Assembly: GCA_029561735.1 (NCBI GenBank)
Contig: JAKQWZ010000022.1
Coordinates: 1-38,351 of the forward strand
Direction of reading: 5' to 3'
Length of the DNA stretch: 38,351 bases
Origin: Candidatus Omnitrophota bacterium
GTDB taxonomy: Bacteria; Omnitrophota; Gorgyraeia; Gygaellales; Profunditerraquicolaceae
The notes under the pieces are model-generated. The model searched no databases. It worked only from the letters and a program-made list of their open reading frames with translations, and was not told the origin of the DNA. The position numbers and the translations under genes are program-made. This document shows positions 1 through 38,351 of this stretch, piece after piece (the stretch's first letter is position 1; each line of letters starts with the position of its first letter).

Positions 1-1850
1 ATAGTTTTTATAAAAGCCTCTGTTGCGTATACCGCATCCCTGCGCCATTCCAGCCAGCTGCTAAGCATGCCTTCTAAACAACTTCTCCAGCTTTTTCCTT
101 TTTTGCTCTTCTTCTTAGCCATAGCAATGATTTTATCAAGGATGCCGTAATGTTTTGAAAATTCGGCAAACATGTCAACTAAACTGTTATGGCGCATATA
201 CAGCATAAAGATATCAAATAAGAAATACCCCTCTTTGCGCAGATAATCCTTAATTTCCGGCCAACAGGCAGTGCCATCTGCTATTTTCTCGTTTAAATAC
301 TTTTCAATTTCCACTTGCTCCTCTTGGCTAACCTTACCAAACTTACGGACTGATGCTTTGTTTCGGCTGACAAATAAACTAATGGTTTTACCTTCTTCGC
401 TTTTTAGATCATCATCAAGCCAAGCATAAATACTGGGGGAGGAAAAAACAGCATCTGCGCACTCAAGCCTGCGAAGCGCTCTCCTTACTACAGTTGTTTT
501 ATTTGCAGATATCTTTTTTTCTCCGTCTTCCCTGCCTATATCACTATAAATTGACTCTCTATTTTTAAGGTAATCGTTAAACTCCTCCTGAGTAAACCCA
601 AAAGAATACTCAAATTGATACCTGAAACCGGAATTTAAGGATATCGCAACTTTGTCCATATGGAATCGCGCAGCAATTTCTTCGGCTAATTCACGCATCT
701 GGGCTTGAAAGCGCGGAGTCTCTAAACCAAAAACACCGCTAAAATTTTTGATCTGCCAGGCAACAGCATTGGCTTTTTCAAATGCTTCTGTTATTCTGCC
801 AGCTGCCTGAGCCTCAAAAGCATCAAGCCCCTGCTCATCTAAAATAATCTTGCCCTCTTCGCAAAGAACGAGAAATTCTTCGACTAATTTGACCAAAATC
901 CGCAGTTTGCGGACAAGCAATTTCTTAGCCCGCCCCATTCCATACCTTCTTATTCTTGTAGAAACGGGGGCGAATTTATCTTTTCCGGCAAAACTGCAGA
1001 ATGTAATTATCAAACCGATTGCAACTAGTACAACGATAACAACTAATTCAACTATATCCTGAGGCGGGCTATTAGTAGTATGGAATCCCGACTCAAAAAT
1101 CTGTCCCAGAGCACCCATTGCGCCGATGGCAGGGAGCTTTTGGATAATTGATCCGCCTTGCGGTTCTGCTTTGTTGATCGATCTTATTAATCCGCCGTTA
1201 ATTATTAAGCCTCCTTGCCTATCTATACTAACAACAGCATCTCTGGCAGCAGCTTCAATGGCCTTACGCATTTTATTTAAACGTTCATCAAAAGCCTGAC
1301 GGCATTGGCTAAAATGATCCGTCCATCCCTGAGCGGATAATGATACCCCTTCTATCATATCGCCCAGAATACAAAGCATCATACCACCATCATTTCCGGA
1401 AAAATGTAAAATGTTATACATAACGTGCTTTGATAATACCTGCCAATCTGTTTGCTCAATTCCTGCTACCTGAGCTGATTTAAAATGGCAGATTCCAACC
1501 AATTGGTTCCTGTATTCGCGGGCTTCATCAATTAACTCCGTCTTTCTTGCTTCCTGTCCCTCGGCAGTAAGCTGCTCCAATTCATCCAAACACTGCTCCA
1601 TCGCCTCAATCAACGGTAATGCCTGCCCGGCAATATAATCCAAAACCTCTCTAATTTTTTCAGCTCTAGCTGCTCCGGAATCCGAAGGGTTGGCCCAAAG
1701 TAAAACTGCCAATGCCGGGATTAGAATAAACGCCGGATTTAACCAGCCCAAAGAATGCAGCAGCAAACCAACGCCTAAAATAACTAACAGGGCTGTAGCA
1801 CCGTTACCGTTAAATAACAGCATAAAATCTGCCATGCATTTTTTGGAGAA
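1..1850 (-). other. Region: membrane segments and C-ward helical tail, gene continues past left edge
   Basis: A membrane hairpin follows the helix-turn-helix (ATALLVILGVGLLLHSLGWL and AFILIPALAVLLW, 1.81-1.69 kb), then soluble helices (1.65-1.25 kb), a glycine-rich linker (RQGGLIINGGLIRSINKAEP, near 1.19 kb) and a further membrane helix preceded by NSPPQDIVEL (VVIVVLVAIGLIITF, 1.05-1.00 kb). The SPPQ-plus-helix layout loosely echoes linker repeat R. The rest (0.95-0 kb) is charged and helical (KKLLVRKLRILVKLVEEFLV), ending open at the window edge with no stop codon. Confidence 0.5.
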
Positions 1851-4800: not shown

Positions 4801-7800
4801 GAATCTTTAGCCAGCCGAAGGATGCACTCCCTCATCTCCTCTACACTAAAACCTTTGATCCCGTATTGAACCGCAAGAATCGCCAGTTCCGCCTTAAAAT
4901 GATCCCAATCATCGCCTAGCTGGCGAATGCACCTGATTGCCTCTTCATGAGAAATTCCTTCATATCCGAAGCCGTTTGAAAGAATCGCGATTTTTCCGGC
5001 AAGGAAATAATAAAGAGGAGAACTTTCGTCTTTAAGAAAATCGCGGAACAATTGAACCATTAATTGATCACTGAAATCAATGCCCTTTTCCAAAGCCAAT
5101 TCAAAAATCTGGCCTGCTTCATCACAGCCTCCGGAATCCATACAGTCATCCATCCACCTGACTACCTGCCAGGAGTCAATCTTTTCCGGATAGTTGGTAA
5201 TCGCCTCAAGAGCGTAATTGCCAATCACGTTTTCATCGCCCAAACCGCCAGAACACCATTGCTCCCAATCACTGATTAATTCCATCAGGTGTTCGTAAGA
5301 ATGAGTATTCTCTGCTTCTTCCGGCTCCCGGAATTGCTGGGCAAAACCAGGGACTCCCCGATTAATCGCTCTTTGCTCGAAATCTTCGGTTATGTTTCTC
5401 ATTGTTTCATATTCATCGTCTTCATCTTCCGCTTCCCGGTAACCGCGTTCCACTGCCCGCTTAAGCATGCAGATAGCATAAATATAATGCGCCAAATCAA
5501 CCCTTCCCTGTTGATCCAATCCCTTACTGGCTATCTGTAACGCCGAGCTTAAGGCTGCGGATAAAGGCGATAGATCCTGCGGCCATTCCACCGATAAATC
5601 CAGAGCTGAAGCCACTTGACGTAAATCAGATTCCAAGTCCGGGTCTTCAACTGCAGCCTTAGCCAGGACTTGAGCGAATACGCCGGAGCCCATGCGCTGA
5701 TTTTGAATATTAGTCCGAGCCAGGGAAATTGCCTGCTCTAGCTGGCCTTGACGAATCAAACCCAGCAGCGTATCCACCGCCACCCCGCCCCAGGCTTGGG
5801 CAGGGATCTCTCCTGAAATCGGCACAGCGCCGTCTTTTACCAGAATGCCTCGGAAACCATTGGCAATAAATCTTACTTTTTCTAGAGAAACATTGATCTT
5901 GATTTTAGATTCTGATTCGCCATAAGCAATTTCCATTTCAAGCCAGCTAAATTTGTCCTGCCATCCCCAATCGCGGAGAAAACCAGGGATTCCTCCCAAC
6001 GGCAGGCCGCGTTCGCGAATGTAAATACCGTGATGATAGATCCGGGAAGCGCTCTCGCAATCAATCGCTGCCGCGGGCGTAAAGAACCAGGGCTTGGCGA
6101 AATCTTCCGGCTCGCCCTTCAAGCTACAGAGGATCATCTGGGATAGGTCGATATCCGGCTGGCGGCCATTGCGGCGGCAATCAAGAATATAACTGATAAA
6201 TTCACTTTCGTTATCATAGGAACCTAAGCGTGCCAGATGACCGCAAACCCCTTCAGTCGGTGTAAAATTGATGGCAATCGGCGCCTTGGCGATAATATCT
6301 TCTTCGGCAAAAACCGGCAGCGGTAAAGGTTGAGGAGAATTTTCGCCGGTGATCGGACGAACCTGAACGATATACAATTGACCGCCGACAAAGGCAAATT
6401 CAATGTCAACCGGAAAACCAAGCTCATCTTCAAGAGCCAAAAGAACCGATCGGACCTGGCGAAGCTCATCCTCGGACAAGGGGGATTTATAGAACTTGCC
6501 GGACTTGGTAACTAAACTGACTGTCTTCTCTTTCCAAATTCTTTGGGCAGTTTCTTGAGCCTTCCTATCCCAGACTCCATCCACCCCACGGTAGCTTAAC
6601 TTGATCCCATCCCAGACCATGCTTGGCGGCGGCATTGGGCTGCCATAATTAACCTCTTCAATTCCACCCTCCTGGTCAAAATCAATGATCGTATTGGCAA
6701 AACCATCCACTGCCTTGGAGCCATCACCAACCACGCATTCAACCGTGGTGTAACCGCATAAATGAGAGAAACCAATACCGGCTTTTTCCGCTGGCACATA
6801 CTCCTGAAGGAAAGCGGTAAAAACAGCTTCTTTCAGATACTCGTCGCTGATAGAATCATGGGGAGCATCCATGATCAGAGAAAGAGCTGAGCCAGCCCTT
6901 AGCCGATCCGTCCTATTAGACATATAACAAGCAGCCATTGAAGTCTCGAAAGAATCTTCGCCAAATCCTGAAGAGCGGGCGATCAGCCTATAACCCAGTT
7001 TTGATACCGCGCAATCAAGTTCAGTCCTAATTTTGGGAGGAAGATTTTGCCGGAAAAGAAAATCCCAAAGAGAATCCTTAAAAGACTCATTTACATATTC
7101 GTTGATTATTATATGCGATAAGCCTGACCCCTCCTCACCCGCTCTTAATAGCCGCACGGCCGGAGAAGCGGATAATTCAGTGAGAAAACGCGCCCAATCT
7201 TGCCGATCGGCATATTGCATTAAGGTAGATAACTCGTTATCAAGAAGTGACTCTAAGAGCTGAGCAAATTCAGAATCAGTTTCTGCGGAATAAAGCTTAT
7301 CCAGGTAAAAATAAAGCGAACAACAGTAAGTTTCAGGTTTTAAATCTTTTTGTTTATATTTTAATTGTTCCCGCACGTAATAATTCCAGGTATTCACGTA
7401 TCTTCCCGGATTCTTAGCGACCGCTGAAATCATTTCATCTACCTTGCGGTTAATCTCTGGCCTGAGCTGTTTATAGAGCCGATTAAGCTTAAGCAGCCAT
7501 TTACGGTCAAGAGTAACAAAAGGCGGGAGAATAAAACCTGATTTTTCCGGCAGGCCTAACTCTTTAAGTATCAGCAGCCAGGCAACTTTACCGCCATGAA
7601 GAGCGCGTAATTCTTCAAACCTCGCTTTAACCTGTTCCGGCGGCATTCGCGGCTGGGCAGGCATTGAACGGTCTCTTCTTTTACCTTTCTTTTTTCCGGC
7701 TTCTTTTAACTCGCAAATCGTATCACCGCGGCAGACTACGGCTATTTGATTAGCCTTAAGCAGCCTTCTGGCAAAACCGGCTTCGGAATTAAATTCATCC

Positions 7801-10800
7801 TTTGATAATCCTATTAAAATCTTACGGGCCAAAGACGGGATTTCAATGCTGTTTACCGGTCGAGAAGCATCTTGATGGGTGGTTTTGTAAACAGCGTCCC
7901 TGAATATTAGCGTAGTCAGTATCTGATTAAAATCCAACTTGCCCAATTCCGGATAATCAATTTTACGCTTTTCCAATTCCTCGATGGCCTTCTGCAATCC
8001 GGAAATATCCTGATCATCCAAATCGCCTATCTTTGCTTTATGTAACCCGGAAATAAATTGCAATATTATCCTGATCGCATCAGGATCTTCGTCAGCGATG
8101 TTCACTAACGTTCGAGGGATCTTCTCTAAATCATCTTCTCCGATTGACGGAAAAAGTATACGCAACAAAACCTTGTAAAGAAAAGGCCTATTATCGGTAA
8201 ACTGCTGAGTATCTTCATGGAGAAAACCGCGCGTAATCCTCTGCCAAAACGCTCTAAAACTATCACAGATCTCGCGGATTTTCTGAGCTTCCGATTCGTT
8301 AAACGGCCTTTTTTCTCTCATTGCTCTATTTATGATAAAAAGTATTACTTTAAATTTGCGTTTATACATAAGCAATATGCCGGAACTTTCTGTCTCAAAC
8401 AGCTTCCTCATCGGCATGCTCTTTACATCCATCTCCACCAGCGCCAGGTGGTCCGGATGAGACATATCTCTAGCCAATTCATCAAGGCTATCAATAATCT
8501 TAATAATATCGCTCTTGGTTTCCTCAAAAATATTAAGCAGCTCTGCCAACTCAAAATATTCCAGCGATTCTAAATACGAATCAATGGTCAGACGGTTAAG
8601 CCAGTCGTGAATTTGCAGATACGTGAAAAAACTCCCCCCCTCAATATCAAACACTCTGCTACGATGTATAGCTGGCTCGTGGCCGCTATGGGGAAGAAAA
8701 TAAAACTGGAAATTCCACCACATCGCACGGAATACTTCATCGTCAATTCCCGAAAGTCCGGCCTCTTTCATAGTCTGTTCAGCATAATCATTTACATAAT
8801 CGCCTTCCTCAGAATAAAATTCTTTGCGCAGCCTTTCTCTCTCGGATATATACTGTTCAATAACCTGCATTTGGGCTTCGTTAAGCTTATCGGTTTCCAT
8901 TGCCTGAAGCGCTGCAATATCATTGTTAACCCAAAAACTAAACAAAGCAGCTATCTGCTCTCCAAAATCATGGCCTTTCCTATCCCACCATTGCCTTTCT
9001 CCGAACCAGGCAAAAAATTCATGCACCAGGACTTCAGCGATAGACGGGCCGTATAAAATATTTATTCCATACTTAAGACTGGAATGCCCCTCAAAAACAT
9101 AAGGCACTCCGCTTGTTCTTTTTATCAAACAAACTTTACCTATCGGAAATTCATCGGTTGTGGTCACGGCCAATTCCCTGAGAATTATGCCAAAATCAGC
9201 CTCTGTGCCGGAATGCTCACCCCTATTTGAGAACTCACTTAAGAAATCGCAGGCTTTATCTAATGCGGGCATAAAATTATCGCAAATCGAAACAGCCTGC
9301 CCCTTTTCATGGGCCTTTTTAATAAAGTAATCTATTACCGGCTGATGCACTTCTTCTATCACCGTATCTTCAACTTCCTCATCGTGCATAAACAACCCGG
9401 AATCGACATTTACGTCTATATTGTGCTCTTCTATTAATTGATTGAGCTGTTGCAATGCTTCAGCTGCATCGGCATCTTCACCAGCCTGTTCTTCTAAATA
9501 CTGAATAACCTCAGCAAAAGTTACTCCCTGCTTAGGCATGGCCAGATCGCGCTCTTCGCCGCCGCGCATGAACAGGCGGTTACGGATATCCCTTGCCTTC
9601 TGTCCGTTAGCAGCAATTATCAGGGTCTTTTCATTAATTTCTATCTTTGTTTGCAACAGGCGCACAGCGTTACAGAAATCGTCAGTGCTCACATCCCCTC
9701 GTGAAGGGTCAAGATTAACAAAAATACCCGTAAGTTTTCCTTCGCTGTCTTCTTTCACTACACAGTCAGGCCGGCGGCGGTGGAAATGCCCGAAAACAAA
9801 AGGCAGCTTAACCCCCTCATCATAAGGAATAGCCAGCTGTTTAAATGCCGCCTTATGCCCCCAATCCTGCTCGCGTTCTTCCCTAGCAACAGCAAATGCC
9901 TGCTGGCTGTCATCATAAACGCGTTTGCAAAGCACCATAGTGCGTGAATCAGGGTTAAGTGCAAAAGATATTGAATCTTCGGCATTAATAATTTTAGCAA
10001 CTTCCAACAAGGCGATTTCAAAATTATCAGGCAATGCAACTTCAGCGGGAGTGTATTGCGTAATGGGGATACGGCTCTTGTTGCGGTCTTTGCGCCAAAG
10101 CATAAATCCTGCAACAATAAGAAGGATTGCTACAGTCAGCCACAACGGCGGCGCATGGGCAAACGGCAGGCCGATTAATATTGCCGGCGCCAGCGACAGC
10201 GGTTTGGACACAGGCATTGAATCCAGAATAATCAAAAATCTTTGGATAAATTCATCCTCCTCTATAATTTTAGCTATCGGCTCTGTCAAAGCCATAAACT
10301 CCGCCTCATACGGAAGGGGCGCATCGCGTTTCCCGGAAGAAGCATGGCTATACTCCTGCCAAATAGCTATTAATTCACCTAAAATTCTTTGGTGGTTAAG
10401 CTCCTGTTTTTTATCGTCAACAGAATACCCGGACACCTGTAACAGCACTGCCGCAGCTTCATCAAACCCGGGATTAAAATCCGGGCTGCTGTTACCCAGC
10501 ATATATTTGTAAAGCCCTGTGATAAGCGCTTCGTAATACTGCCTTGGCATATCCTGAGCAAACTGCTCAATCAGGCAGTTGAGGGTCTGGCTAAAAGCAG
10601 AATCTTGGCCTTCTGATTCTGACCTTCTTAGATACGTCTCCCAAGAAGCAAGGCCGGCAGAATAAACTTTTTCGGCTAGATGGAGCGGGCTGAATTGAAC
10701 CGCCTGCTCTTCTGTTTCACGTCCGGCAATAATATTCTGAAGCTGCTGGTAATCATCGCTGTCTTTGGAAGTGCATTGCCCGGCTATAAGTTCCAGCAGG

Positions 10801-13800
10801 CAGCTGCTTCCGATACAACTGATAAATAATGTTCCCGGGCATAGCATTGAAAGTATCTGTGTCGCGATTATGTCTTCCCGCGCCAGTATCAGCCTGATAT
10901 CAAGGCTATACTTGGCCGAGATATATTCCTTCATTGATTCCAAGGCCTCTTCCAGAGGCGAATAATTCGCTTCTCCGCTATAGGCTACATAAAAGTTAAT
11001 AGTATCATTCTGCGTAAGGTCTTCGGCAACGGTATCGTATATCCCGGCAAAGCTAATTTGCCTGACCCCGAGTATACGCAGGCTCTCTGCCTCGTCATTG
11101 AGCATGCGGCAAAATTCATTTATTCCGTCAATAACCGGCTGGCTTATCTCATAATCTTTTATCCGCGACAAATCGCCTAAAGCAGCTACCTGTCTAAGGT
11201 AAGATGAGAGTTGCCGTTTCCGGAGGAATAATTTTGACAGCGCTTCATTGATAAAATGCGCGGCATTTAACGGGGCATAGATTGCCACAGCCAGAAAAGT
11301 GAAAAAGGCAAATGCCACTGTACCGGGCCTGAACTCATAAAGATAAGCATCCAGGGCATTCATAGTATAAGGGGTAAAATTGCGGCGGGACAAAGCCTTT
11401 AATTGCCAGAGGTAACGCGCCTCATGTAAAATAAGAAGCTTCATAAAATACCTGCACTGCGACGCCCATGCCGCTATCCTGATTACGCCGCAGTAAGGAT
11501 TGGAACTTGCCGGGCGCAGGCGGCGGTAAATTAATTTTTCAAACAGGTTCATTCCGGCTTCATAGCGCGGCTGAAGCACTATATCGTTAACGCATGCCAT
11601 GCCATCTATTTCTTCCCTGTCCCCGGAATTAAACGCATCCTTGATAATTTCTTCTGTCAATTCCGCGACCTTATCATCAAAACTTTTGGATGCCCAGCCG
11701 GATTTATCCCTGCGGGCAAATTTTGACAGAATACCGGTATAGCCGATTATCAACGCTGAGCCGATGATATATACTGCCATAACTATTATTGCCGCTGCAG
11801 AAGGCGCCCCTTTTTCTATCCACGTATAAGCTGCAAATCCGGCTGCACCCCAGAAAATAACGGTAGAAAAAATTATCATAATAATACGCGCTACCCTGCT
11901 AAGAAAAACAACATTGCGCTTTTGGCGCGGGCTGTATTCAGGCTGATGCATATTCACAACCGTCTGTTTCACCTTATCTTTTAAAGCCTCAAACCTAGCC
12001 GGCTGGATTATGGGCAGGCGCACGGTTATTTCAGTACCCAGCTGCATTTCCAGCCTTCTTTCTTCAGAAATTATATCCATAAGCATATCGCATTTTTCCT
12101 GCGAAATACGGCCAAGCGCTAAAACCAGAGCTTTTAATTTTTGATTATCCAGTATCTGCCCTAACTCAATTATCTGGCTGTCAGTTAATCTTCCGGCAAT
12201 GCCTTCAAGCAGTTTATAATTGAGCCCGGCAAGGAATTCCGGGCTTATCCCATGCGTAGGCAGAGGCGATGGTAAGGCAAGCGCTGCGTATTCCGGAAAT
12301 TTACTTTTTGACTGCTCCGGCAGCTGGGTAATTGCCGCCTGCAAACCCTCATAATCTACAGACTCAAGCAATGCCTCCAGAAGAACGTTATTCTGGGTAA
12401 TACCGGGCGAAGAAGCAAGGTATTCAACCTGATGATACGCCAAAAATTTAGCAGTCCTTCTTAAAAAATCAATATCCTCCAGCGCTGCGTTTAATATGTC
12501 CGGATCGTTCATATGCACTACGTCCTCGTCAGCAACAAGAGAATACGGCAGCTGGCGGATAGCCTCTGCCACCTGATAGGTGTTTAAGTACAACCGGTAT
12601 TTCTTCAGGAATTCCGGAGCTATTCCGGCAATCTCAAATACTTTGTGCGCATCCAGCTGGCGCGCTACAAGTTTAAACAGGCTTTCCGGAATACCCAAAA
12701 TCGTGTTTACGCTGAAAGTATTTAATATCTTTTTGATTTTCTTCTCCAGAAACGCCAGCCTTGCGGTATAGCTCAAAGACGAAAATTTATCCAACCCTAC
12801 AAACTGCTCTATGTCCCGGATATCTTCAGGGATCGGCTGGACCAAATTATGAAGTTCGCTTTTGGCCATGGCGTCATTGCGCATCTGCCAGTAATCACGC
12901 AGCTGTATAAGCGCATTTTTCTGCGCTTCTTCAAAACTGACAGACTGCTGATAATCATCTATTTTAGGCATAGGGTTTAAAACCGGGGTAGAAATCCGGA
13001 AACTGCCGCCTAAACTTTCAATAACGCGCTTGTTGTCGCGGGTTCCGGTGCCTGTGCCGGTTTTTTTGGTGGTCCTGCTTCTCCTGCCGCCGCTGATTGA
13101 ATCGCGTATCACCCTGGGTATGCCCGGGCCATTGTCAATTATTTTAACTACTATCATATTATTCTGCTGGTCAAATTCAGTGATTATTGCTATCAGCCCG
13201 TCTTTGACGCTCTTATCTTCAGCCACATAACCCATTGCCTCAATAGAATTACGGATAAAGTTCAGCCATACGTGGCGCAGCTGCCGGTCATCAGCCAAAA
13301 CCCTGCCGGCCATCGGAGCAATAGCCACAAAGCAATCTCCTTTGCTGCTTCTCTGCGCCTGCCCGATGATATACCCTTGCGCAGAGACTTTGGTTTTCTG
13401 CTCATGCGACCAGAGTATGCGCGGCTGAAATACGGTTATAATCCTGATTAGAGTATCGGCGACATCTATAACGCTGATGCGCGAAGGCAGCCCGGTGACA
13501 AAATCCTGTATCTCTTTAAGTATGTCATTTAAGCGATGCTTGTTGATAATGATCAATTCGGTTAATTCTGCCACCATTAAACTGTCATCTTTTTCGGCTT
13601 CCCCGTTATCAAGGGGATTTTTCTGGGTTTGAGCCTTTTTTATTATTGGCAATACAGAAACGCTTTCCGCAAGCGGCGCAACAGAACAATTTTGCTCATC
13701 CACCTTAAACCCTATTGCCTCAATAAAAGCAAGTGTCAGGCGGGCATAATCTATGACTGAACCGGCAATCCCTGATAATTCATTGATACTCTGGCTGGTT

Positions 13801-22800: not shown

Positions 22801-25800
22801 GTAGCTATTTCAACAATGTTTTTCATGCCTGCCATATATTTTTCATAACCTACACTCCTCATCCAGGCGCTGGGAGCTATGCTTATATTTACATAAAATT
22901 CATCATCTAATCTATAAGCCTGCAGCATCTTTTTTAATGCGCGTTCTCCGATTGAGCCAGAAAGAAATCCAGAGGTAATAATTATCCTGGTATCAAATAA
23001 TATCTGGACATCAGCGCCGTCCTTATCATAAATAAAATCGTAATAATCCTTGATGGTATCGGACATAAACAGTTCAATATGCACCGGCTCTCCTTCATCA
23101 GCTAACTCCCCAAGCCATGGCCAAGGCGCGCAGGATATTGATATCACGGTTGACTCACAGCAATGGTCACACTGAGTAGAACAGCCCCAGACAGGAATCA
23201 CCCTGGCGCCTTCGCAGCTGCTTATTGCCCGGTCAAAAACCGCGCGCCGGTCTTTGGTAAAATATGACACGAACCAATTTTGCGGCGGCTCCATCAACTC
23301 GCTTAAAACTGCGACAATATCAAAAATTTCTTTATTCCCTGCTAAAGCCTTAAGCGAATCTATTTTTTTTCTTCCCAGCGCTGACAAAGGCGCGCTGTAA
23401 TGCTCAATCATATCTATCCTCATATTTATTGCGCGATAAAAATCATCCAACCTGTATGCATCCGAATCTTGAAGCATGAGCTTTATTCCGGAATTGATCT
23501 GAGCCAGCCGCCTGATAAACTCCTGATAATCCCATTTCCTTAATTCCCAATCTATATAACCATCGTATTCGCTTCCATCGTCAAACTCACCCGGTTTCAT
23601 TGCCCCGCAACCGTGCGCAGGCTGGTCACCCTGGCCTTGCTGTTTTTCCTGAACAGCGCTGATAGCGTTGATGATTGCCGCGGTTATCTGCTGGTGGTTA
23701 ACCCCGGAATCAAGCTGGCCTTGCACTACCTTCAGGATTCTATCAATAGTTGCCTCAATAATCTGATCGGGTTTTTGCCCGGCATAACTATCAACTACTT
23801 TAATGATATCCTCTACGCGCCTGAGGGCAAAACGGTGTTCTTCAACTAAAGTTTTGATTAATCTTATCCAACGCGCAAAACCATGCTTTAAGGCCTTGTA
23901 TTCTTTATGCCATTTTTCAGTCTTAGGCAATTCAGGAGAAACCCGCTGCTGGTTTTCCTGCACAGGCGCATGCAATGACTCAGCGGCTTGCCGGTTACCA
24001 GAAAGCCCGGTAATTTCAAACTTAATTTTACATTCGCTGTAATTAACCTCTATTACTACTGCTTGATAAAAACGATTATTGCCATCACGATCATAGATGG
24101 CCCGGGAATGGTCCTGATCAGAGGTAAACTGCGCAGGTATACAGGACATCGGAACGAATCCGGAAACCGTCCTATCTTCTACAGTCTTGGCAGTTACAAT
24201 CATGCCGTAGCGCTGAACTCTGGAGCCGTGTTTATATTCAAAACGGTCAGCCCGGACAATTAATTGCTGCCCCTTGTAGAATGAGCGGCGGAATTCATCT
24301 TTACTTACTGCCCGGCTACCTTGTTTCTCATAACCGAAGTGGCTGGCCAGAGCAAGGATTGAAAAAGCAGACAAAGCAATCACTCCGATACCTAAGCCCA
24401 ATTTAGCAAGGATGACTGCGCCAAGCAAAACCAAAACTGGCATTAATAAAACTTCTGCTAAATCATCAACGCCTGATATGCGGCTCCTTAAATCCTGCTC
24501 ATTTTTTAATTCCTGTGCGATAATATCGTTGATCATTCTCTTAAGTATCGGGCTTGTTAGAATATCTTCCAGCAGCACATCGGCTATATTATGCCCCTCC
24601 CTATCTTTGGCTCCCCCCCAAACTGCGATAAATCTGTCATCAAGCTGGCTAAAATAACTGCTGAAAAACAAATGGTATGCCGCCCTAGAACTTCCAGCCA
24701 TATAAAACTCAAGTGCCTCTGCAGTCTTTAAAGAATCTATTATAAACATCAGGCTATAAAACTTCATTTTCAAAGAATATAGCCCCAGCTGATGTTCATC
24801 CAAAAAGTAAGTATTTTCTTTACAATTTATCAGCAGGCCTTCTGCTACCCAAGCCCTATAATCTTCATATCCCGATAGCTCCTCAATATCAGCTTCGCTA
24901 CCATCTAAGAGCGTGTCTTGCGGGCCGACTGTTTCTTTAAACAGTAAGGCATTCTGCTTTTTTGCCTCTTGAATCCCCATAGCGGTAATAATCATATTCA
25001 GAAAATCCCGGCACTTTAAAACTTTGCCCGCTTCAAGCCTGCCCTGACCAACTAACACCTGAGAAATTGCCCTGCGCAGCTTAAGCAACTTTTTATCCGT
25101 ACAAAGCAGCTGGGGCAACTTAACTAATCTGTGCGGTGTAGCTACTAAACTAAATATCAAAACCGGATTAACTGCCTGGCTATACCTATCCTTTAGCCCT
25201 GCAGTCCCGGCTAAATTACCACTCCCGTCAGTTACAAATTTAATCCTGCAAAAAGCTATTGTCCGGACAAATAACGACGGATTCGCTATGACAAAATCCG
25301 CATTCTTTAGGGAATTTGCAGCCTCTTTCAAAGTAGCCAGTCCCCAATAGCGGGACATACTTGATTCTCTCCAATAATATGGTGGTAAATTCATATCGCC
25401 AAACTGGCCGCAGCCTTTTACTCCCAGCCATCTTCCATCAGCCAGAGGAAAATACGCCTGCCTGCCGTTGGCTACTTGAATTTTATCAATCATCGTCTGG
25501 TTGCTGCGCTGATCAATGACTCCGATAACAATCTGCCTGCCCAAAGCAGCCACTTTATCAGCCAAAGCTGCTGAACCTATAGAAAAAACACTATGCGCGC
25601 GCAAGAATTGTTCGCCTCCGATTTCAGCAAGAGCTTGCGCGTTAACTATTTCTAATTCATCTAGAGCAAAATCAGGTAAAAGCTCTAAAAATACCGGGTC
25701 AAGATCCCGATCATCCAAAAGCGCTTGCTTGACTTCATCGCTAAAGCAATTTCTTAAAGCTTTATAGTTATATAAACCTTTTAATCTTAGATATTTATCA

Positions 25801-28800
25801 AAACGAGTATTTAGTTCATATTCTTCGCTAACAGGGACTGGCTGAATGCGCAACCCTCCGCCAAAGCCGGCCATAAATACGGCGAACTGATAGCCTACTA
25901 AAATAATCGCCAGAAATGCGATAATCATCGCCGCTAAAGTAATATAATTTTTGGTTTCCTGAACCCGGGCGAAATTATTATATCTGGCATTACGCCTTTC
26001 CATAATATTCTGCCAGACTTTATGGCGTAATTCAGCTTCTCTGCGCTCTGCTTCGGTCATATTCATACCCAAGCCTGAATACGCTTGTCGCCTGAATAAG
26101 GTCCTGAACTCCATCAAATTACTGCGGTAGGCATACGGGTCATCATAGAATAAGCCGCAGATAAAATGTATCAACGGTAGAAATTTTATATACCCGGAGA
26201 ATTTTGACGATTTATTAAAGGCGCAGGAAATCCAGAAAATTGCCCGCGGCCAGTCAGCTTTTAAATATTGGAATGCGGTCTGTTGTTCGCTAAGGAGTGC
26301 CTGCCCGCGCGGCTCGCTGATTGCCATTGGCGACGCTAATAACAGAAACATACTGGAATTGCCGCCGCGGCTGTAAGATTTACCGATTACATCCAAAACC
26401 GTAAACGCCAGATATAACAGTTTACATCCGGCAAAAGCAAAATATGCCAAAGCCAAATAAGCCAAAAATATATGCGCGCCAAGCAAGGCTAATTTGAACA
26501 AGCCAACGCCTATGGCGATAAAAGTAAATCCAACTAAAATTAGTTCCAGCGGGGTAATTTCTTGAGAAGAGATTTTTCTGGCGCCGGCGCGGCGGATATT
26601 TCTGCCGGCCATTGAAAGGGCCAGGATGGCAGCGAGAGAAATAAATACAGCGGTCACTAAGTCAGCGAAACTCAAATTCGCCAGCCACTGCGGCGGGGCG
26701 AGGTTGCCAATGCCGTGGAATTTATCCAGCATTAAGCTATGCGGAATTAAGGCTAGGCCTAACAGGGATGAGCTGCTATTAGCGGCGTTGATTAACTTAT
26801 CCCTTTCTTGGGTAACTAGATCAATAAATGCCTGCGGGAACCTTGAATTGCGCAATGTCCTCATAAATGATTGCGATTTTTCTTCAGGAGTAAATATGCC
26901 TTTGGTTAACGTGCTGGGGCTGACGGTTTTATTAACAATAAGCGGCAAAGTAGTATCTTCTTCGGCTAACCGGTCGGCAACACAGCTGTCCTGGGTAGTA
27001 ATTACTGTCAGGCAATTGGGTTTAGAGCTCAATGTCAGGGCGCAGCCGATCTGGGCGCTGTCAGTATCAGCCCAAAACGCGCCTCTAAACGGCTCATCAA
27101 GCAAATAAATCTTCGGGGCTTGCGTTTCCTGTTCAACTACTGCCAATAAATTAGAATAAGTTTCGCCGGTATTGCGCAATAAACTCATGCTTGAGTAAGG
27201 ATCGTCTTCTTCAGCGATTTCTAAGAATACTTCTGCCGGAGTCCACTCCATTTCCTGCGCCGGTACCGGCCCGCCTAGGCTGGGGGCCAAATTAAAATAA
27301 CCAATGGCTCTAAGCGTGCTGGATTTTCCGTCTTCATAGGCACCGGTAAGCGGTACGGTATTTTTTCCGCTGTCTCCTCCTAACTCAATGCTAAAAGGCA
27401 TAGGTATAAATTCGTCTTTCTTCCCCTCCCATTCATCCCATTTGCTTGTTTCCGGGCGCAGATTTAACGGCCTACCCCCAATTATTTTCAGGCAAGGCTT
27501 GCCATCTTTTCTTAATTTCGGCATTACCCAGCCTTCATCCATAGTCATTTCCGCCAAGGACAGATAAATATCCAGCATCACCATTGCCTGCAACATTAAT
27601 TTTAGCGGCTGTTGATTTTGCTGATACGCCTCAAGCGCAGTAACCAGATCTTTTCCTTCGGCAATTTTTAAGCCGCCGTTAATTATATTACCCAATTCTC
27701 TTAAACGCGAAGATTTCATCCCCTGCAGTAGCGGCGCGATATTAGCGGCAACATCCAGAGTTACTTCCCAGCTGGCGCGGATAAACTCTTCCCAGCCCTG
27801 CGGGTAAACTTCTCTTACCCCTCGCCAATCTTGATAAAAAAGCGCTAAAGCCTCATCAAAAGCCGAAAGCTCATTGGCTTCTTCCGTGAGTTCTTTTCTC
27901 TTTTCTTCTGTAAGTTGTTCATTGAAGAATTGCGCGCTCAAGGAACGCCGGTATATATCCATTTGATAGGGATTAGCGTCCATATCCCGGTCAAATTGAA
28001 GGGCCATTAAATGCGGCAAATGCAAGGCTGACACAGGGCCGGATGCGCGATAATCCTCCATCATTTTATGCTCCATGGCTCTGAGCTGGTGCATCTTTGG
28101 ATCAAGAACTAAACGCATCAACTGGCTATACAATAGGAAATAAGTATTGCCGGAAAAATTACCTGCTGTAACCGCCGCATTAATTTCTGTAAAGGCTTTC
28201 TGCATTGCGTTAAAAGGATTGTATTTTCCTGATTTCGGGCAGATTTCGCTTCCTTTATCCGAACAGTCCCTGCAGATATTATGCCGGCGGCTGTTAATCT
28301 CGTTACGCGCCTCTCTTAAGCAAACTAAGAACAAATCTTTCAGCGGATTTAACCGACGCGCCGATTTTGCCAGTTCCGTTACCGCATCAAGCCTTGACTT
28401 AACTTCAGGAACGCTTGATACCGGATAAGCTAATTCTAAGCCTATTATTTTTTCGGCTTCTCTGGTTATCGGCCAGAAAGGAAACGCGTAACCCCAGTCA
28501 GTAACAAATTTTGTTTTTTCGCCGTCCGGCGCCTGCCAACGCCTTAAAACTGACTGTTTTATTTCTTCTCTGCGCATAGACATAAACATTCCCATAAATG
28601 AGCCTAAACGGTAAACATCGCCTAAAGCGCGGATTAATCTCTGCCGTGCAGAAAGCCGCGGTGAAGGCAGATCACTGCGAACGCCGTCAGATACTTTTCT
28701 TTTCTTTAATAAATTAATTGTTATCGGCAGGGCTAATAATAATAGTGCGGCTAAGCCTAGAATAATTAAAGGGTTAAGCGAATCCGGCGGGGCGATGTTG

Positions 28801-31800
28801 CCAATGCCGTGGGATTTATCCAACATCATACCCAGGCCAATAAATGCTCCCAGATTAATTGTATGACTTGCCCCGTTCTTCTTGGGAGAAAAATAGCCTC
28901 TCCCTAAAATATTCACATCCCGGCCGGTTAAATGCGCGGCTATGCAACATAAATCATCCGAGGGGATCACGCCCGTGCCTTCGGGTTCTAAAAATCCGGT
29001 GGATTCAGTGTTAAGCACGGTGCGCAACTGAGGAGTGCCGATATATTTATCCAACTTAGCAGGATCTATAGGATGATGTCCGTAATTTTTCTTTCTCTCT
29101 CTTCTTTCTCTGGAGGCACAAATCAAGAGGTCGATCCAGCGATAGCGTAAAAGGGCTAATTGCCGGGCCAGAGAATAAACTTCATCTACTGAAACAGGAT
29201 TGCCATTAGTCGGAGTTAATAAAAACAACCTTGCGTATTTTTCGCCTTTATCCGGGCCAAAAGTAGTTAATAAATATTTCTTAAAATTACCGGGAAATGC
29301 AGCGCGGTCAAAACTGGAGGCCTGAGCACTTGGTTGTTGTTCTTTTTCTGGCTTCCTGCCGGTTCGCTTTCTCCTATCCTTCTCCTTACGGACTTCCAAT
29401 ATCATAGCTTTAGGCTCAAATGCTGCCTGTGGCTTTTGGGTTTTTTCTCGGGCCAAATTCACTAGATTCCTTTCTGCAGCTTCAATAGCTCCCTTGACTT
29501 TCCCTGTGAAAGGATCCTGTAAAAATAAAGTTTTTTGTCTTTCCTGTAAATATTGTATTGTTGCTTGCAGCTCTGCCGCATTTCTGGATGCATACGCTGT
29601 GGCAATCTGCAACATCTCATCTACGGCCTCGGCTATTTGAAGCGGGCATCCTTGTTCAGCGGCAACGGAAAATCTCTGCACCTGCTCCAAAACCCCTTTC
29701 CAATTGTTGTTATCAAAACGCCTCTTTACCTCTATTTGCGCCAAAAGGATTGCCTTGGCCTGCTCAAAAGAATATGTTTGGCCTTGCTGCAAACTCTCTA
29801 ACAACCCAGCGCAATATTGCTGCGTCAGGCTGGTTAGCTGGCTCTGTTGAGTACTCACCGGTATTCCGATATAAGACGAAACCTGGTTTAACTTCTCGGC
29901 TAATTCAATCTGGCCCAAGTCAAAAAGCATTTCAGTTAGTTTTACAAATATTGCATGTGGGAATAAATGCGGGTTATTCGGAGAAGCCACCAGCCTAAAA
30001 GGCAATTCTACAAATTCTATCATTTTATTAATAATTTCTAATACTGCTTCAGGATGGCGGAAAATATTACCATAATAGTAGCCATTTATTAACTGCAAAA
30101 ATATACAGTTTGAGACAAATCTAACGGCGACTGATTGGTCACCCTTATTATCTACCCGCTGGTTCTGCCGAATTACCTGGTGCACTTCATCCAGCAGCGT
30201 TTGAGGCCCCTGATCTTTAGCCCAAAAATAACCGTAAGTATCGTAATTTAAATCAACTAACTTGGCCAAACAATAAGCATAGATATTTAATAATGCCGAG
30301 CGTAAATCTTCCGGATAATCTTGTACCCTGGACCCACGCAAAAATTCCAGCGCATCTTCAATTGCTCCGAATTTGGCTAAATCTCTAATCCTAAATAACT
30401 CCATACTTTTTAGGCTTACAGGCATAAGTAAAAAATCGCAACTATACGGCTCAATATTGCTTCTAATAGCCGCTAAACGCTCAAAACAAGCATCATACTC
30501 TTCGTCAGTTATTCGGCTAGGATCATCGCTAATTATCTGGGTCAGGTCTTTATTTACGCAGGTCAATAAGATAAAACCGCTGGTAAAGAAAAGCTTGGGA
30601 TATTTTTCCGGATCGAAACTGGCAAAGGCATGCTCGGCAAGAGGAATAGCTTCTCTGTATTGTTTATCTCCGGCTAATTTAGCACATTCAGCAAAGACCA
30701 GTATCGCATCCCTAATCTCAGGATACTTGAAACCAGCTAAGGCTTCTTTGGTGATAGCTTTACCGGCTGCAGCAAAACAATATGTGGCCAACTCAGCTAC
30801 TAAATTCGCGTCAAAGTTGTGTTCAGCTATAACTTTACCTAATTTTTCACCCAGTGACCTGGATCCAGATTCAACCTTAGTCTTACCTCGGCCGGCAATC
30901 AACGGCATATTACTCTGCCGGCTAGCGGTATCCATCATCATCTGTCCTTTTCTTACTTCAGCAGCTTTTTCTCTTAATTCTTCGGTAACACAGGCCTTAA
31001 TTATAGCTGCAGCTTGAGGGCTGTACAAATCCCGCACCTGATCTAAACTCTTTGCCACAGAGCTACCTACATGCGCCCGGTTATAAGTTATCTCCATCTT
31101 AGGGGGTTTAGCCAAGAAAAGCAGAATAACCAATATACCAAGGATAATAGAATTAAATAAATTGGATAGCCAATCCGGCGGGGCGAGATTCCCTAGGCCA
31201 CAGAATTTATCAATCATCAAGCCAAAACCAATAAAACCACCTAAGCTCCATCTGGGCCATCCTTGTTTAATCATCTCAATCGAAGTAGGCATAAATCCGT
31301 CAGGGCTGTCAAAGAGGAACGCCAGTTGCGGAATGCCTAATTTTCCGTTGGCAAAATATTTTTCCATCACAATAGCATCTTCAGGATAGCCGTTCGGCCC
31401 TAATTGAGCGAAGAAATCAGCGATATTTTTCTGCAGATCAAAAATCTCACTTTCCCATGCCCGGCGGACAGTGTATAAAAATGCTTCTGTATCTTTATGC
31501 ATCAACTGCCTCATTTTGCTGAAATCGCGCGATTCGATTGATTTAAAGATTACCTGCGACCTATCCCAAATAGAAATGGCCTTTAAATTATTATCCCAAG
31601 CCGCGCGAGATTCTTCACCCAGCTGGGCCAGCAGAGTTTCAACATAAGGAGCGACATACTCTTCAATAAATTTAGGCGTGCATAGGCGGCAATCAGCGCC
31701 TACTTCTCTGCTTAAACCGTCAACTCGTGTCTGCACATCCACGCCAGGAGTAATATAGGTAGCTGAGACATCAGCAATCCAAAGCAGGCGGCTGGCAACA

Positions 31801-34800
31801 GCTAAGTCATTCAGCCACTCAGGCAAAGCCATTTGCGCTGAAGCTTGGATTATTTCCTCCTGGCTTAGAGCTATCGGGTCAGGCCGCGGCGAGCCTAATT
31901 TGAATACCAAAATCTTTACCCAGAGATACATTAATTCCTTCATCAGCTCTTTTTCTATACCTAAAACTTGAGCTAAATCAATAAGCTCGTTTTCAAAAGT
32001 TTTCCAGGTTTGCTCAAAATCCGCGCCAACAGCCAAAGCAGCTGAGCCGGCAACTCTTACCGGATAATCGTGCAAAAGCGCACCTGCTGTAACTAATGCG
32101 CATAGACGGGCGTCTAAGCCCTGCTTCTTGGTAGCTTCTGCCACTATGGCTGCTACTTCCTGAGAATGCTCAAGGCAGTGATAGCAATCTTTTAATTCAT
32201 TCCAGATTTCCTGAGCGCTAACCGCCCTATAAAGCGAATCAAGGGCAGTTACGATACCCGCGGCTTCTGCTTTTGCCGGCATCCTTAATAAAACGCCCTG
32301 CTGCTCTAACTTGGCAAATACCTCATCGGCAAGAGTAAGGCAATATTCGTCAGTACTCCACTCGCAAAACACATCACGCCAATTGTCGCCGAATTTATAA
32401 TAAAGCCCTCTGACTACTCCGGATAATATGGCTATAACCTGATCCAAAGCCGAAGGGCTTTCAAAATCCGGATACTTCTGGGCTAAAAATAAAAGCTGCG
32501 CCTGCTCAGGGTCAAGGCTATTGACAATAAAGCAGCCGCCGTTCTGGTCAAAAGCAAGCGGATAGAATTTCATTTCTACCGGCTCCTCAATATCCATCCG
32601 CGGGCAGGGGAGAACATTGGCCGCAGCACAAATAGAATTTAACAGGCCTAGATCAAGATCCACTCCCTGAGGGATAGAATCAACTGATTTGGTTAAGAAT
32701 TCACGCACCTGGGCTTCAAGAGTTTCGTGTAACCCGGGCTCAGAATAAATCCTTGTAGAAAACTCATACTGGTCAAAAAGATGCTCAAAAAAGGCCTGCG
32801 GGCTGACTCCATAAGCGCGCATCTTCTCTGAAATAACCACACAGGGAAACGGGCTTTGCGCGTCTTTGCGCATATTTATATCGCCGGCGCTAGAGACAAA
32901 TACAGGCATACTTTTTTCTTCCTCATCATAACTTATCACCTTTATAGCAGTGGTATGCTCCAGCCAACGCAGTAGCTCTTTTTCGGTAAAATTCATTCCG
33001 TCTGCTCTTCCGTTCCAAGCAAGCCTCATGCCTTCACCCGTATCGTAAAGATTGATTTCGCAGATACCTTCTACAAATTCATAAGCAGTCATCATGATCG
33101 GAAACCCATTACTATCCCTGAAGCCAACGCCGCCGAGCGGCTTGCTGAAACAATTAGGGTTTTTCTCATAATCCGTCTGCATATATTCAAATTCTGCTTC
33201 CATAAATCTTGCCATTCTTTCATGCGCAAATCGCAATAAATCCAGCGCAAAGCTCTTTATCTCTTTGTTTTTGAGCATTACGTCCGTGCGGAAGATTATC
33301 GCAACAGAGCCTTCCTGAATATAATCAACCCGGATACTATCTATTTCGCTAAAATCTATTTCTCTGCCAAATAGGTTTCTTAAAACAACCGGTAGAAAAC
33401 AATATTCTGCGCGGTTAAATATACCTTTAATAATGGCTGCGGCGGTTTTAGGGCCGATTTGGACCATCTTTTCTCTAAGCGGCACATGCTCATCCCAGCC
33501 ATCTTTATTCTCAAATGGGCAAATAATATTAAGCTCTTCTTTGCTGGGAAGGGGTTTACCGTTATCAGGCAAAAGCTGCATTTTAATGTTAGTAAATAGA
33601 TTGTTATAGAGAATATGCACAGCCAGCGAAGAAGCAAAACAAAGCGCTAATATATGCGGGGTATGAGGAATGAATATTATTGGGATAAAGAATGCAATAG
33701 TAATTACAGCTGCTGCGATTACGCGCCTGAGGAAATCCTTACTTCCGTGCAATGCTGCATACAAAGGAACGCTGATAAATAATGCGGTAATACAGGAAAT
33801 ATACGCTGCCGGAGGCCCATGAATACCGCAGGAATCCAGCGACTTTAATAATAACGGGGTGAATTGAGAGAACAAGAATAGCCTGAATACCGCCTCTTCC
33901 CAGAGGGGAGCAATAAAATTATTATAAACACTACGTAATTTAGGATTTCTAATACTTGCGGAGAATAAAGCCATCGGCGCTGACGATTCTGTTTTAGCCG
34001 GAGCTGGATAATTTACAGATTTAAATAATATCACTCTTATATCCAGGCCATCCCGATTCCTATTCTTGATCTGTCGCTCTAAATCTCTTTTAACCATACC
34101 ATCGGATAATTCCGGAAAACCCTTTAAGAGAACAACTAAAGGCAGATGCTTTTCATCTGCAGCTGCCTGAGCAATCAAGCGGTCAGCCAAAGCCCCTACG
34201 CCGATAGTCAGAGCGTTCATAGCTTCGTGATGGCGGGCTTTCCAATCCATCATTTTCCAAGGCATATCCACCAGCGCCTCTTTAGCCGACTTTAATATAG
34301 AAGCGTCTGTATCTGTTTCGCGGGCATGATAATAATTCTTTGCTAACCCTAAATCTTGCAAAGTAACAGAAGTATATTTGACTCTGGCAGCCAAAGCGCC
34401 GCTATTTGAATGAAACCAAATATAATAATTATACAAATAATGCAGCAATAAGTTTAAGGGCAAGAGCGGCGAAAGGATGCTGTTAAGCAAGCCCGGCAAA
34501 AGCAACAATTTACAGCGCTGGCCAAACTCTATTTTAAATATGGATTTTATAGCGATATTCGGATGCCTGCTGGAGTGATTAAAATTAATTATGTAAACAT
34601 CTTTATGAATTCCAAAGAAATATATAAACGCGGCAAGGCTCGCGACAAATGCAGACAGCCAAGCCGGCTGTGCCAGCGCAAAAAAGGCAACAGCAAAAAC
34701 AACAGCATAGGTTACGAATCTTAATGACTCTTCTATCCAGATTCCCGTCCCAAGAGAATATTTTCTTAAGTTTGACACGCTGTGCTGACTATTCCTACTG

Positions 34801-37800
34801 AATATTTTTCTTAAAGCCGGGGACATCGCTGGAATGCCTGAAACCTGCTGGCTGCGCGGGATAAGGTAGGTGCGCGGGGCAGTGCTTTCAAAAGAAATAT
34901 TAGCATCCGCGGCTTCCGGGCCAAATACGATATTGCCTTCACTCCATAACCTATAGAAAATCGCTTCGCCTATTCCGGCAACATCTGCTAAATTCTTCCA
35001 GTCGGCTATAGGATTACCCATCTGACGCCAGCGGTATTCAACTATTTTCCTGGCTGCATCATGACGGCCCCGGCGCAAAGCATCTTCTTCACTCTTAGTT
35101 TTAAATATTATCGCGCGAAGAACAGCTTCAGGCGCAGCATTCAAATCTATTTTATAGCTTTTTTCTTTGACTAATCTAATAAACCCTTGAATATTACCCT
35201 TATATTTCAATATTTCCGCCTTCCATTCATGTTCCATAGGAGATAAAAGCGGATCAGCGCTGGTAATTTCTTCTCTTGCGCCGTAAATGTCTATCTGGGT
35301 TTGCCCGGGATTTTCGTGCTTGATGCGCGACTTTCTTCTATGATAAGCGCGTTTTGGTTTTGAAGGCTCAACAACCTGCTGCTGCAACTGGAAATCCTCT
35401 CCCGGCACAGGCCAGGGGAAAATCACTTCATTAAGAATTCTTGCAATAATCGGCCTGATTTTTTGCAGAATAGTCTTATATTTTACGCGGAGCGTTTTAT
35501 TATCTTCTGCTTTTTTAATAATTTCTTGGGCGCTTAAAGGCTTGCCATGGACATTTTTAACGCCAATAAGCTGTTCTGCTATCAGGCGCCTGACAGTATC
35601 CTCTTTGCCAAAACGATAACCCAATGCCAATAACCGGCTGATCAGATGAAACGGATTGGGTTCTTCCATCAGCGTTGCGCTATAGCCTCTGCGTTCTCCT
35701 AAAATATGCCCGGGAATTTCAAACAAACAAAGCGCCGCCAATACTATTATTACTGCCGGCAAACAAAATTCTTTAGCTAACAAAAGTGTTCCAAGAATAA
35801 TAATCGCGCCTTTAATATTATCGTCTTGGGGTATCCCTCTAAAAATCCAATCTTCCATACGCTTGCCGAATAGCTTAAAAATAACAGTCAAAATGATAAG
35901 TGCAACAAAAACAGATAGAACATACGGGGCTATTTCAGAGCAAAGGAATTGACTGGTTAATCGTTCAATCTGCCTTAGAAAGTTTTCAGCGAATATTAAA
36001 CATAAAGAAAGGAAGGAAAGCGTTTTCGTTTCCGGCCAAATAAAAACCCTTTGTAAGGACTTAAGAAAAGTATTTATTAATTGGCCCAGAAAACCATCTT
36101 TGTTTCTACTAATCGGAGGCCCCTGACTGAATTGTGGGGCCTCAGGAATATATAGTGGTGCTCTTCTGGCTGATGGCAGCTCTGATTTTTTGCTGGATGG
36201 AATTACTAAATTCGTAACTAAGTTTAAGCCACAAGCCGCTGGTTGTCCTGCCCTTGACTGTTCCGTCTTTTTCCACGAAAAACGCATATTCATAACACCA
36301 ATCCGGATACGACGCGCAAGCAAAAATACCTTTATCGCCAAACTGAATACTATGGATCTGAATATTTTGTAAGTTAGGCATGGCAGCACCTCCCTTTTAA
36401 TCATAGCAATAACAGCTCTGAAATCTTTGGCTATATTCTTCCAATTTATCGTCACCCCGTCTTTTTCTGTCCAGCCGGGGATAAACCTTAATGGATTAAA
36501 ACCACAGCCTAAATGAATAATATTTTCCTGCTTTTTTGAAGTTATAAGTTGTTGGATCAATCTTGTAGATATATCCACGCGCTCATCAAAGCTATCCACC
36601 TCGGCAAATTCATCCTTTGAATGCGCGTTCTGGCCGGTTAAACCCATCCCACAGAATACCGGAATGCTTTGGCCGTTCTTATTCGGCGTTGCCGCAATAA
36701 TATTTGAATCTGCTGCAGAAGCATGGAATATGCCCTCATTAAGAATACCGGCCTGCTCAAGCATTTGGCGGGCTAAAACATGTTCTTCCATTACCGGGCG
36801 GTGCGGCATATTAGGCTCTGCGCCTATTATAGCCGCAATAGAATTCCTTAGGGCCTCTTGCCTGTCGGCAAACCGGAAACGGTATTCACCGGATACCTGA
36901 AGAAGAACCGCATCATCTAATTCCTGCTCAATGCTTAATTTTTCATCGCATATTATTCCGGTAGCTGTTTCTTCAACAAAAGAAACAGTTAAGGCAGATA
37001 AAATGTCTTCCCTGATTGCCTCTTTTTCATCTATGCACAATGGATCCGCATAAACATCAATGACTGCCTGCGCATGTCCGGAAACACGGTTTACTTTTCC
37101 TCCGGCATTGATACTGCGTATATAGAATAACAGCTTGCCCTGATAATAGCCGGTAAAAAACTTAAGCCATCCGAGCTTACGCGCTAATTCAAGATTACAG
37201 TCCCCTATAGAAGAAAGTGTTTTGCTGCCGGCATGCCCTGAAGCGCTGAAAATATTCAGCGTGTATCTGCCGATAAAATCATAGCACTCAGGAGCTTTAC
37301 GGCGGTCAAAACCCGAGATTAAACCGGCATTTACCCTGTCGCCGGTATGGCTAGCCAAATCATCGCCTATATTATGATTATCAGAAAGTAACGACAAATT
37401 GCACACTATTCTTTCCAAATCATCCATAGAGCTAAATTCAGCATTAAAATGCCCGATGCCCTGACGGGAAAGGATTATCTCACCGTGATTATTAAATTCA
37501 AATACCAGCGCCATTTCTATCGGGTACTGCCTGCACAGCTGCTCAATAAGCACGCGGGAGTCTTTGGAGCCGGTTTCTTCGTCGCTATTTAATACGCCCA
37601 CAATATTGATATTCTTAATCAAGCCAGATTCATTTAGCCTTTTAATAACTTCCAGCATCACTGCCAGCCCGCCTTTCATATCCATAGCACCGGGGCCTAT
37701 GGCTCTACCTGCTTCAATAACCAAGGCGCGGTTGTCCTGCGCGCGGTCAAACACGGTGTCCATATGTCCGGATAATAAAATATACGGCTTATCCGGATTA

Positions 37801-38351: not shown

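Follow-up and report, generated by a model that had tools for sequence, protein, structure and literature searches.

A giant protein of 39,678 aa has been published for V. archaeovorus (Ca. Velamenicoccus), a member of the Omnitrophota (Seymour et al. 2023, PMC10066038), and a passage in PMC12057145 cites proteins of up to 85,800 aa. Proteins of 10,000 to 80,000 residues have to be made, folded, and placed, and the giants of Omnitrophota are the extreme case of this task. Ribosome arrest peptides are a second described system that bears on the present locus. Arrest at RAPP and RGPP occurs in varied contexts and resists EF-P, HAPP and RAGP are also arrest cores, and, of all tetrapeptides, RGPP is the most strongly depleted in 10 major bacterial groups (PMC12992588, PMC10987492, PMC10951233). 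The known RAPP peptides are linked to Sec/YidC (PMC10951233, PMC10987492). Most natural RAPP-like sequences of E. coli and B. subtilis stall inefficiently, so the sequence upstream of the motif matters for arrest (PMC10987492).

The DNA analysed here, termed the window, is contig C94 in its entirety (38,351 nt). The contig comes from a 1.23 Mb, 95-contig, 82% complete MAG, the DnaG of which is 59-64% identical to those of Candidatus Omnitrophota MAGs. The window belongs to the known class of Omnitrophota giant ORFs: it is a single ORF of more than 20 kb, with few Pfam matches and 39 hydrophobic segments (Kyte-Doolittle; helices were called from hydropathy alone), and both the start and the stop of the gene lie outside it. 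The overall explanation preferred, with a probability of roughly 0.45, is a giant gene whose product would be made by paused, module-by-module synthesis; stalling in the host and its role as a checkpoint are proposed. It competes mainly with three other explanations: the giant may be a processed polyprotein, R[AG]PP may have a structural role, or the published role in a coat or in predation may apply. Several of these explanations can hold together, and the confidences placed in them overlap.

One Reading Frame across the Window and Probably Beyond

From base 38351, the minus strand is open for 12,783 codons (3..38351, both ends open; residue i corresponds to base 38351-3(i-1)) with 0 stops, while the other five frames carry 434-1,108 stops each. 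All protein features given below lie on this strand. By base composition alone, the chance of an open frame this long is ~10^-316. When codon usage trained on ordinary genes of contig C93 was applied to 254 windows of 300 nt, the giant frame scored best in 252, the coding pattern of GC by codon position was kept along the whole frame, and the Pfam domains searched for in it were found. A tRNA and Rfam RNA scan of the window returned none. The two 300-nt exceptions start at aa 651 and 701 and make up the sole region (36099-36401, aa ~651-750) where another frame scored slightly higher; it is basic and proline-rich, with no module recognised.

It is practically certain that the frame is real and codes for a giant of the Omnitrophota type. 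The sequence-only reading had described one uninterrupted minus-strand frame carrying the recognisable domains, had pointed to Omnitrophota as the source of such giants, and had regarded their content and function as poorly understood, all of which agrees with the present results. Its ranking of the protein among the largest of bacteria was fair, yet the published examples cited above are bigger. Absent from it were the continuation into C93, the signal-peptide/C39 N-terminus, the kept active-site motifs, the arrest-motif excess, and the other junction tags.

That the frame arose by faulty assembly or binning is scarcely credible, even though the source is a MAG and the contig is short. Sequencing indels add stops rather than remove them, which makes the frame hard to explain as an artefact. 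The same type of frame occurs in near-finished relatives, with 30,185 codons in a 7-contig genome and 42,913 in a 2-contig genome (both recovered in the C39 start search described below), and the present genome also carries ordinary genes and encodes both EF-P and tmRNA.

Extension of the contig, which the sequence-only reading had proposed as a check, gave a join at the left end, where the frame likely continues in C93 to a true stop; the right end is without an overlapping partner. The last 13 bases of C93 (100,185 bases) are the first 13 of the window (1..13, ATAGTTTTTATAA), and a minus-strand frame of 11,104 codons runs off the right end of C93. The join keeps phase, gives a joined frame of 71.6 kb in which 23,884 codons or more precede a real stop, and on the C93 side runs straight into a histidine-kinase ATPase domain. 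The overlap and phase make it likely that the C94 frame continues into C93, and the gene probably has at least 23,884 codons. Past its stop are ABC importer genes, for a solute-binding protein (SBP_bac) and a permease (BPD_transp_1), and then ordinary genes. A 2023 preprint on giant genes is said to report carbohydrate importers nearby as well as helicase domains resembling SecA, and this would fit C93. At the right end, no contig was found to begin with the 13 bases that close the window. The last 2,000 aa encoded by the window, used in a scan of genome contigs, retrieved no relative.

A Signal-Peptide/C39 Domain Opens the Giants of Relatives

A search of 147 related genomes with modules of the window showed that these recur inside very long frames, of 15,000-57,756 codons. 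Frame lengths were 57,756 codons in G010, 48,300 in G069, 38,661 and 37,731 in G080, 39,957 in G050, and 23,032 in G132; a G032 frame of 70,450 codons owes much of its length to 72,000 N bases, which were left out of the counts. These giants are the ones that surfaced in searches with the window, not a random sample. They align only in modules of 100-400 aa, in differing order, and are otherwise unalignable. In G052 (contig C17), two giant frames of 20,993 and 10,977 codons adjoin, with one stop codon between them.

Giant frames of relatives are opened by a domain of ~280 aa that combines a signal peptide with a C39-peptidase Pfam match and is conserved in 68 of the 147 genomes, at up to 64% identity. 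Across five aligned copies, the active-site residues Cys175 and His265 are invariant, while the third residue lies in FSD in relatives and in FIE in the copy of the present genome, that is, Glu instead of Asp. This single copy is on contig C52, outside the window, and a GQSP..GTVP stretch sits even within it. One C39-type start in a relative (G132:C1:373954-374766) leads into a frame of 12,652 codons containing a single TAA, which points to a giant that has been interrupted or to a fault of assembly. C52, C94, and C93 are probably parts of one gene, with a putative link between C52 and C94, and if so the gene would exceed 24,800 codons.

Enzyme Modules with Kept Active-Site Motifs

The N-terminal part of the window holds an M20 metallopeptidase resembling carboxypeptidase G2 (aa 192-600, 36552..37778; Pfam E 8e-21; PDB 1cg2, E 6e-15), in which the metal-ligand motifs HMD, DMKGG, DEETG, and NAHS are kept by eye. 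A candidate CPBP/Rce1-like intramembrane protease (aa 1474-1554, EEAVFR ... HILYNN, 33690..33932; Pfam E 2.5e-4, below the curated cut-off) and a MutS domain V-like ATPase with GKS and LLDE kept (aa 3668-3787, 26991..27350; Pfam E 5e-4, below the curated cut-off; NCBIfam MutS E 9e-6) follow. The next module (aa 4182-4587, 24591..25808) had no Pfam match, is 31-37% identical to long frames of relatives, and has about 47 invariant columns over five genomes. Its best Foldseek match indicates a SelO/YdiU fold (the top 8 are mostly YdiU/SelO by name, with a best E of 5e-4 and a probability of 0.95), and the confidence of the underlying model is moderate to low (pLDDT 59).

Further along lie a module with a radical-SAM-type CX3CX2C motif, CSTQCDHC by eye (aa 4933-5345, 22317..23555; 32-37% identity), of which G010 has three copies and G105 two, and a GH13 alpha-amylase domain (aa 5397-5692, 21276..22163; Pfam E 1e-25; PDB 4gkl, E 1e-19; 47% to the G132 giant) with RLDAP, AEAFDE, and GHD kept by eye. 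An M50 site-2-protease-like module has HEFGH (aa 5952-6135, 19947..20498; Pfam E 6e-4, below the curated cut-off). A recurrent giant-protein module (aa 7050-7190, GFFGN ... HExxE ... TH, 16782..17204) is zincin-like by motif; several other genomes have copies of it in their long frames, with HExxE and the following His invariant; Foldseek gave no significant hit to a zincin fold for it (zincins at best E 0.14), though the model had a pLDDT of 86. A kinase-like module with HLEN and DFG by eye (aa 7404-7619, 15495..16142) has a paralogue in the C93 part (self-match 26-27%, E 5e-14). The remaining Pfam matches are a histidine-kinase ATPase domain (aa 8354-8454, 12990..13292; E 4.5e-10) and the C-terminal part of a PPDK/PEP-synthase ATP-grasp domain (aa 10598-10672, 6336..6560; E 1e-12). 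A histidine-kinase-like H-box (RHDFNGALGVISGNAEM) stands at ~19710-19770 (aa 6195-6215) and precedes the ATPase domain by about 2,150 aa, and the two kinase halves seem to be split. The C93 part adds a response regulator, an SNF2 helicase, sigma-70 regions 2, 3, and 4, NAGPA, B12-binding/radical SAM, and methyltransferases.

By inspection, the active-site motifs of the M20, GH13, M50, CPBP, MutS-like, and SelO-like modules appear to be kept, which is new here. Fusion of genes through stop-codon loss, followed by decay, would explain a mosaic of unrelated modules, the apparent splitting of the kinase, and the REP-like inserts of the C93 part. A DNA repeat (GGGACGGTTCTGAAATC...GGGACAGTCCC) has several in-frame insertions toward the C-terminus of the giant and also lies beyond it, near C93:48486; a DNA-level explanation is accepted for GTVLKSLTEVS/KGQSP in C93, a repeat that is present outside the gene as well. 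Such neutral accretion is improbable: motifs are kept and modules conserved, as in the invariant columns of the SelO-like module, the frame is open over all 12,783 codons, and linkers are conserved with many silent changes.

The published view, that such giants are an extracellular coat, an adhesin, or a cell-wall-degrading protein used in predation, may apply here, although the odds are somewhat against it. Signal peptides in relatives and on C52, the hydrophobic segments of the window, the M20 and GH13 modules, and the importer genes just past the stop all agree with it, and peptides of giant ORFs were raised in attached V. archaeovorus cells (PMC10066038). However, in Pfam scans neither the window nor the C93 part had any of the adhesin domains LamG, discoidin, and dockerin (reported for some giants and not required of all), and enzymes of cytosolic type are abundant, those of the C93 part fitting uneasily with a purely extracellular coat. 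Given how many enzyme modules with kept active-site motifs these genes contain, calling them giant adhesins may be an oversimplification. A coat or predation role would be compatible with pausing.

Membrane-Hairpin Cassettes and Linkers

The modules of the window are interspersed with cassettes in which a helix comes after a hydrophobic stretch and a turn, for example HGIGNLAPPxWL. Six were delimited by a cassette model, by self-match, or by both. The first three, also found by self-match (61-68% for the first), comprise DKFCGLGNLAPPDWL with its membrane helix (aa 2368-2416, 31104..31250), DKSHGIGNIAPPDSL with its helix (aa 3165-3213, 28713..28859), and DKFHGIGNLAPPQWL with its helix (aa 3862-3918, 26598..26768). 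A fourth (LALPFTAMLPKGDWG ... helix) is at aa 7746-7806 (14934..15116), the fifth carries HAPP at 10146-10157 within FAHAPPLWL and a helix (aa 9385-9420, 10092..10199), and the sixth (LGQIFESGFHTTNSPP and helix, aa 12405-12453, 993..1139) has a near copy in C93 with 78% DNA and 85% aa identity. Many of the DNA differences between cassette copies are silent. A linker is also present twice, as AHGCGAMKPGEFDDGSEYDG (aa 4908-4931, 23559..23630) and, 75% identical to it, PPHGFGAMKPGEFDGGTEYGG (aa 6090-6113, 20013..20084), with 10 silent and 6 aa-changing codons between the copies. A profile of the hairpin cassettes of the window gave no clear match in other giants. QPHAPP/MPHAPP cassettes of the present genome and of G010 fall in one cluster.

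An Excess of Ribosome Arrest Motifs

A search of all tetrapeptides placed RAPP and RGPP at the top of those over-represented in most giants. In 12 giant frames from 10 genomes (376,481 aa), RAPP occurred 40 times (2.8 expected from composition), RGPP 31 times (2.3), and HAPP 10 times (0.8), together 81 against 5.9. The R/H[AG]PP core has 85 sites in these frames, with up to 19 motifs in one frame. RAGP (16 vs 4.8), RSPP (9 vs 2.1), and HGPP were moderately enriched, and RAPG, AAPP, AGPP, KGPP, and RDPP were not. Ordinary ORFs of the same genomes (501 stop-to-stop ORFs of at least 150 codons, a set of modest size in which some may be spurious) had 0 RAPP, 0 RGPP, and 1 HAPP in 202,310 aa. A dipeptide null lowered the expectations to 1.7, 1.15, and 0.45 for RAPP, RGPP, and HAPP, and the remaining 11 permutations of R,A,P,P totalled 23, those of R,G,P,P 15. 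Enrichment mostly tracks published arrest strength, being high for RAPP, RGPP, and HAPP, moderate for HGPP, RSPP, and SecM-type RAGP, and absent for RAPG, AAPP, and KGPP.

Three R/H[AG]PP sites are in the window (P 0.0017): the HAPP of the fifth cassette, an RGPP (aa 7114-7117, 17001..17012), and an arrest-like HGPP just before a membrane helix, within the CPBP-like domain (aa 1511-1514, 33810..33821). The joined C94 and C93 gene has 7 against 0.45 expected (P 5e-7), including a RAPP at joined aa 20770. Across giants, the motifs lie near helices and zincin-like modules: a helix begins within 25 aa downstream of 12 of 74 sites (3.8 expected), and an HExx motif within 110 aa downstream of 24 of 74 (5.7 expected).

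This last figure would also be expected if R[AG]PP were no more than a structural mark, carried by helix-capping linkers and by a zincin-like domain that has been copied widely, with the ribosome uninvolved. With RAGP included, 54 of 101 sites fall in homologous clusters, in several of which R[AG]PP or RAGP stands at the same domain position, and some of the excess is thus copying of zincin-like domains. As the whole explanation, such a structural role is doubtful. When homologous contexts were collapsed, 43 R[AG]PP sites (52 for [RH][AG]PP) remained in unrelated contexts, including positions right before helices and, by eye, the beginnings of GalE-, glycogen-synthase-, and LysM-like modules; Lys forms are little enriched.

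Possible Module-by-Module Synthesis

Under the preferred explanation, paused synthesis, the gene would run from a signal peptide and C39-type peptidase (C52) through the window to the stop on C93, its enzyme modules (peptidases, a glycosidase, nucleotide-binding proteins, and kinases) strung together by linkers and repeated membrane-hairpin cassettes. Membrane and Sec involvement is likely; synthesis would most likely take place at the membrane, with Sec presumably passing the chain into or across the envelope. Many junctions would carry arrest motifs (R[AG]PP, H[AG]PP) in place of stop codons, at which the ribosome would pause until the preceding module or helix had been folded, translocated, or cut, and then resume, a form of checkpointed synthesis. 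It is possible that the motifs pace synthesis module by module. The broader idea, put forward tentatively, is that the tetrapeptides most avoided by bacteria may have been recruited at dozens of independent places as internal punctuation. By halting translation between modules, they would allow a chain tens of thousands of residues long to be folded, inserted, or released stepwise without stop codons.

Several points stand against pacing, among them the inefficient stalling of most natural RAPP-like sequences noted above. Known arrest peptides are short and stall near the C-terminus, usually with the membrane signal upstream, whereas the helices of the giants are enriched downstream of the motifs, not upstream. 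RDPP, which is partly permissive, shows no enrichment. Two of the three sites of the window are inside modules, and the G132 giant has no R/H[AG]PP motif. Against export, cytosol-type modules such as sigma-70 and the SNF2 of the C93 part fit poorly.

In place of R/H[AG]PP, the G132 giant (G132:C6) has 63 SSP[AS] tags, none of which is inside a Pfam domain (10 expected). They often bracket single complete modules, such as a receiver domain (133 aa), GNAT, HAD, a Gfo/Idh oxidoreductase, and PEP synthase. The G069 giant (G069:C26) has [KR]DGG 47 times (about 1.7 expected), often right before a module start, and also 12 RGPP. An origin of the SSPA, DGG, and R[AG]PP tags at the DNA level was ruled out, as synonymous codons vary, and this variation places the selection at the protein level. 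The punctuation of giants by short peptides is, like the kept motifs, new here.

Tags of this kind could mark a processed polyprotein, with the giant cut into separate enzymes by its own C39, zincin, M48/M50, or CPBP modules at SSPA in G132, [KR]DGG in G069, and R[AG]PP and GG-containing linkers elsewhere. This is considered rather unlikely, although the SSP[AS] and [KR]DGG tags speak for it, as do the conserved N-terminal C39 peptidase, many HExxH modules, the proteases embedded in the window (M20, M50-like, and CPBP-like, besides the C39 on C52), and soluble enzymes such as sigma-70, TrmB-like, and PPDK. However, the tags vary by lineage, the cleavage sites and their pairing with proteases are putative, neutral linkers would also avoid domains, and few linker families recur within the window. 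GG, as a C39 site, was not enriched overall. Pausing could belong to the same process.

The excess of stalling motifs opens the question to standard ribosome assays. If paused synthesis proves true, translation arrest would gain a new role, in internal pacing rather than upstream regulation.

Comparison with Known Systems

The gene shares with the published Omnitrophota giants (PMC10066038) its phylum, an ORF of more than 20 kb, many helices, few recognisable domains, and poor conservation. The giants of the present clade differ from them in a common signal-peptide and C39 N-terminus, in enzyme modules with apparently kept active-site motifs, and in the arrest-motif excess, three features not found described in the freely readable giant-ORF literature.

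The C39 domain resembles the Peptidase C39 domains of bacteriocin exporters in its Pfam match and its invariant Cys and His, but it comes after a signal peptide, not with an ABC transporter, and the C52 copy has Glu where relatives have Asp. Processed polyproteins likewise combine one frame, many enzymes, embedded peptidases, and short repeated junction peptides; here, however, the gene is bacterial and chromosomal, the tags are lineage-variable, and cleavage is putative.

With the RAPP-type arrest peptides ApdA, ApdP, and SecM (PMC10951233, PMC10987492, PMC12992588), the giants have in common identical cores (RAPP, RGPP, HAPP, and RAGP) and a membrane or secretion context. An N-terminal localisation signal is present in relatives and on C52, whose link to C94 is putative. 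ApdA, ApdP, and SecM are small, regulatory, and encoded upstream of a regulated gene, each with a single motif close to the C-terminus, whereas in the giants the motifs are spread within frames of 11,000-58,000 aa.
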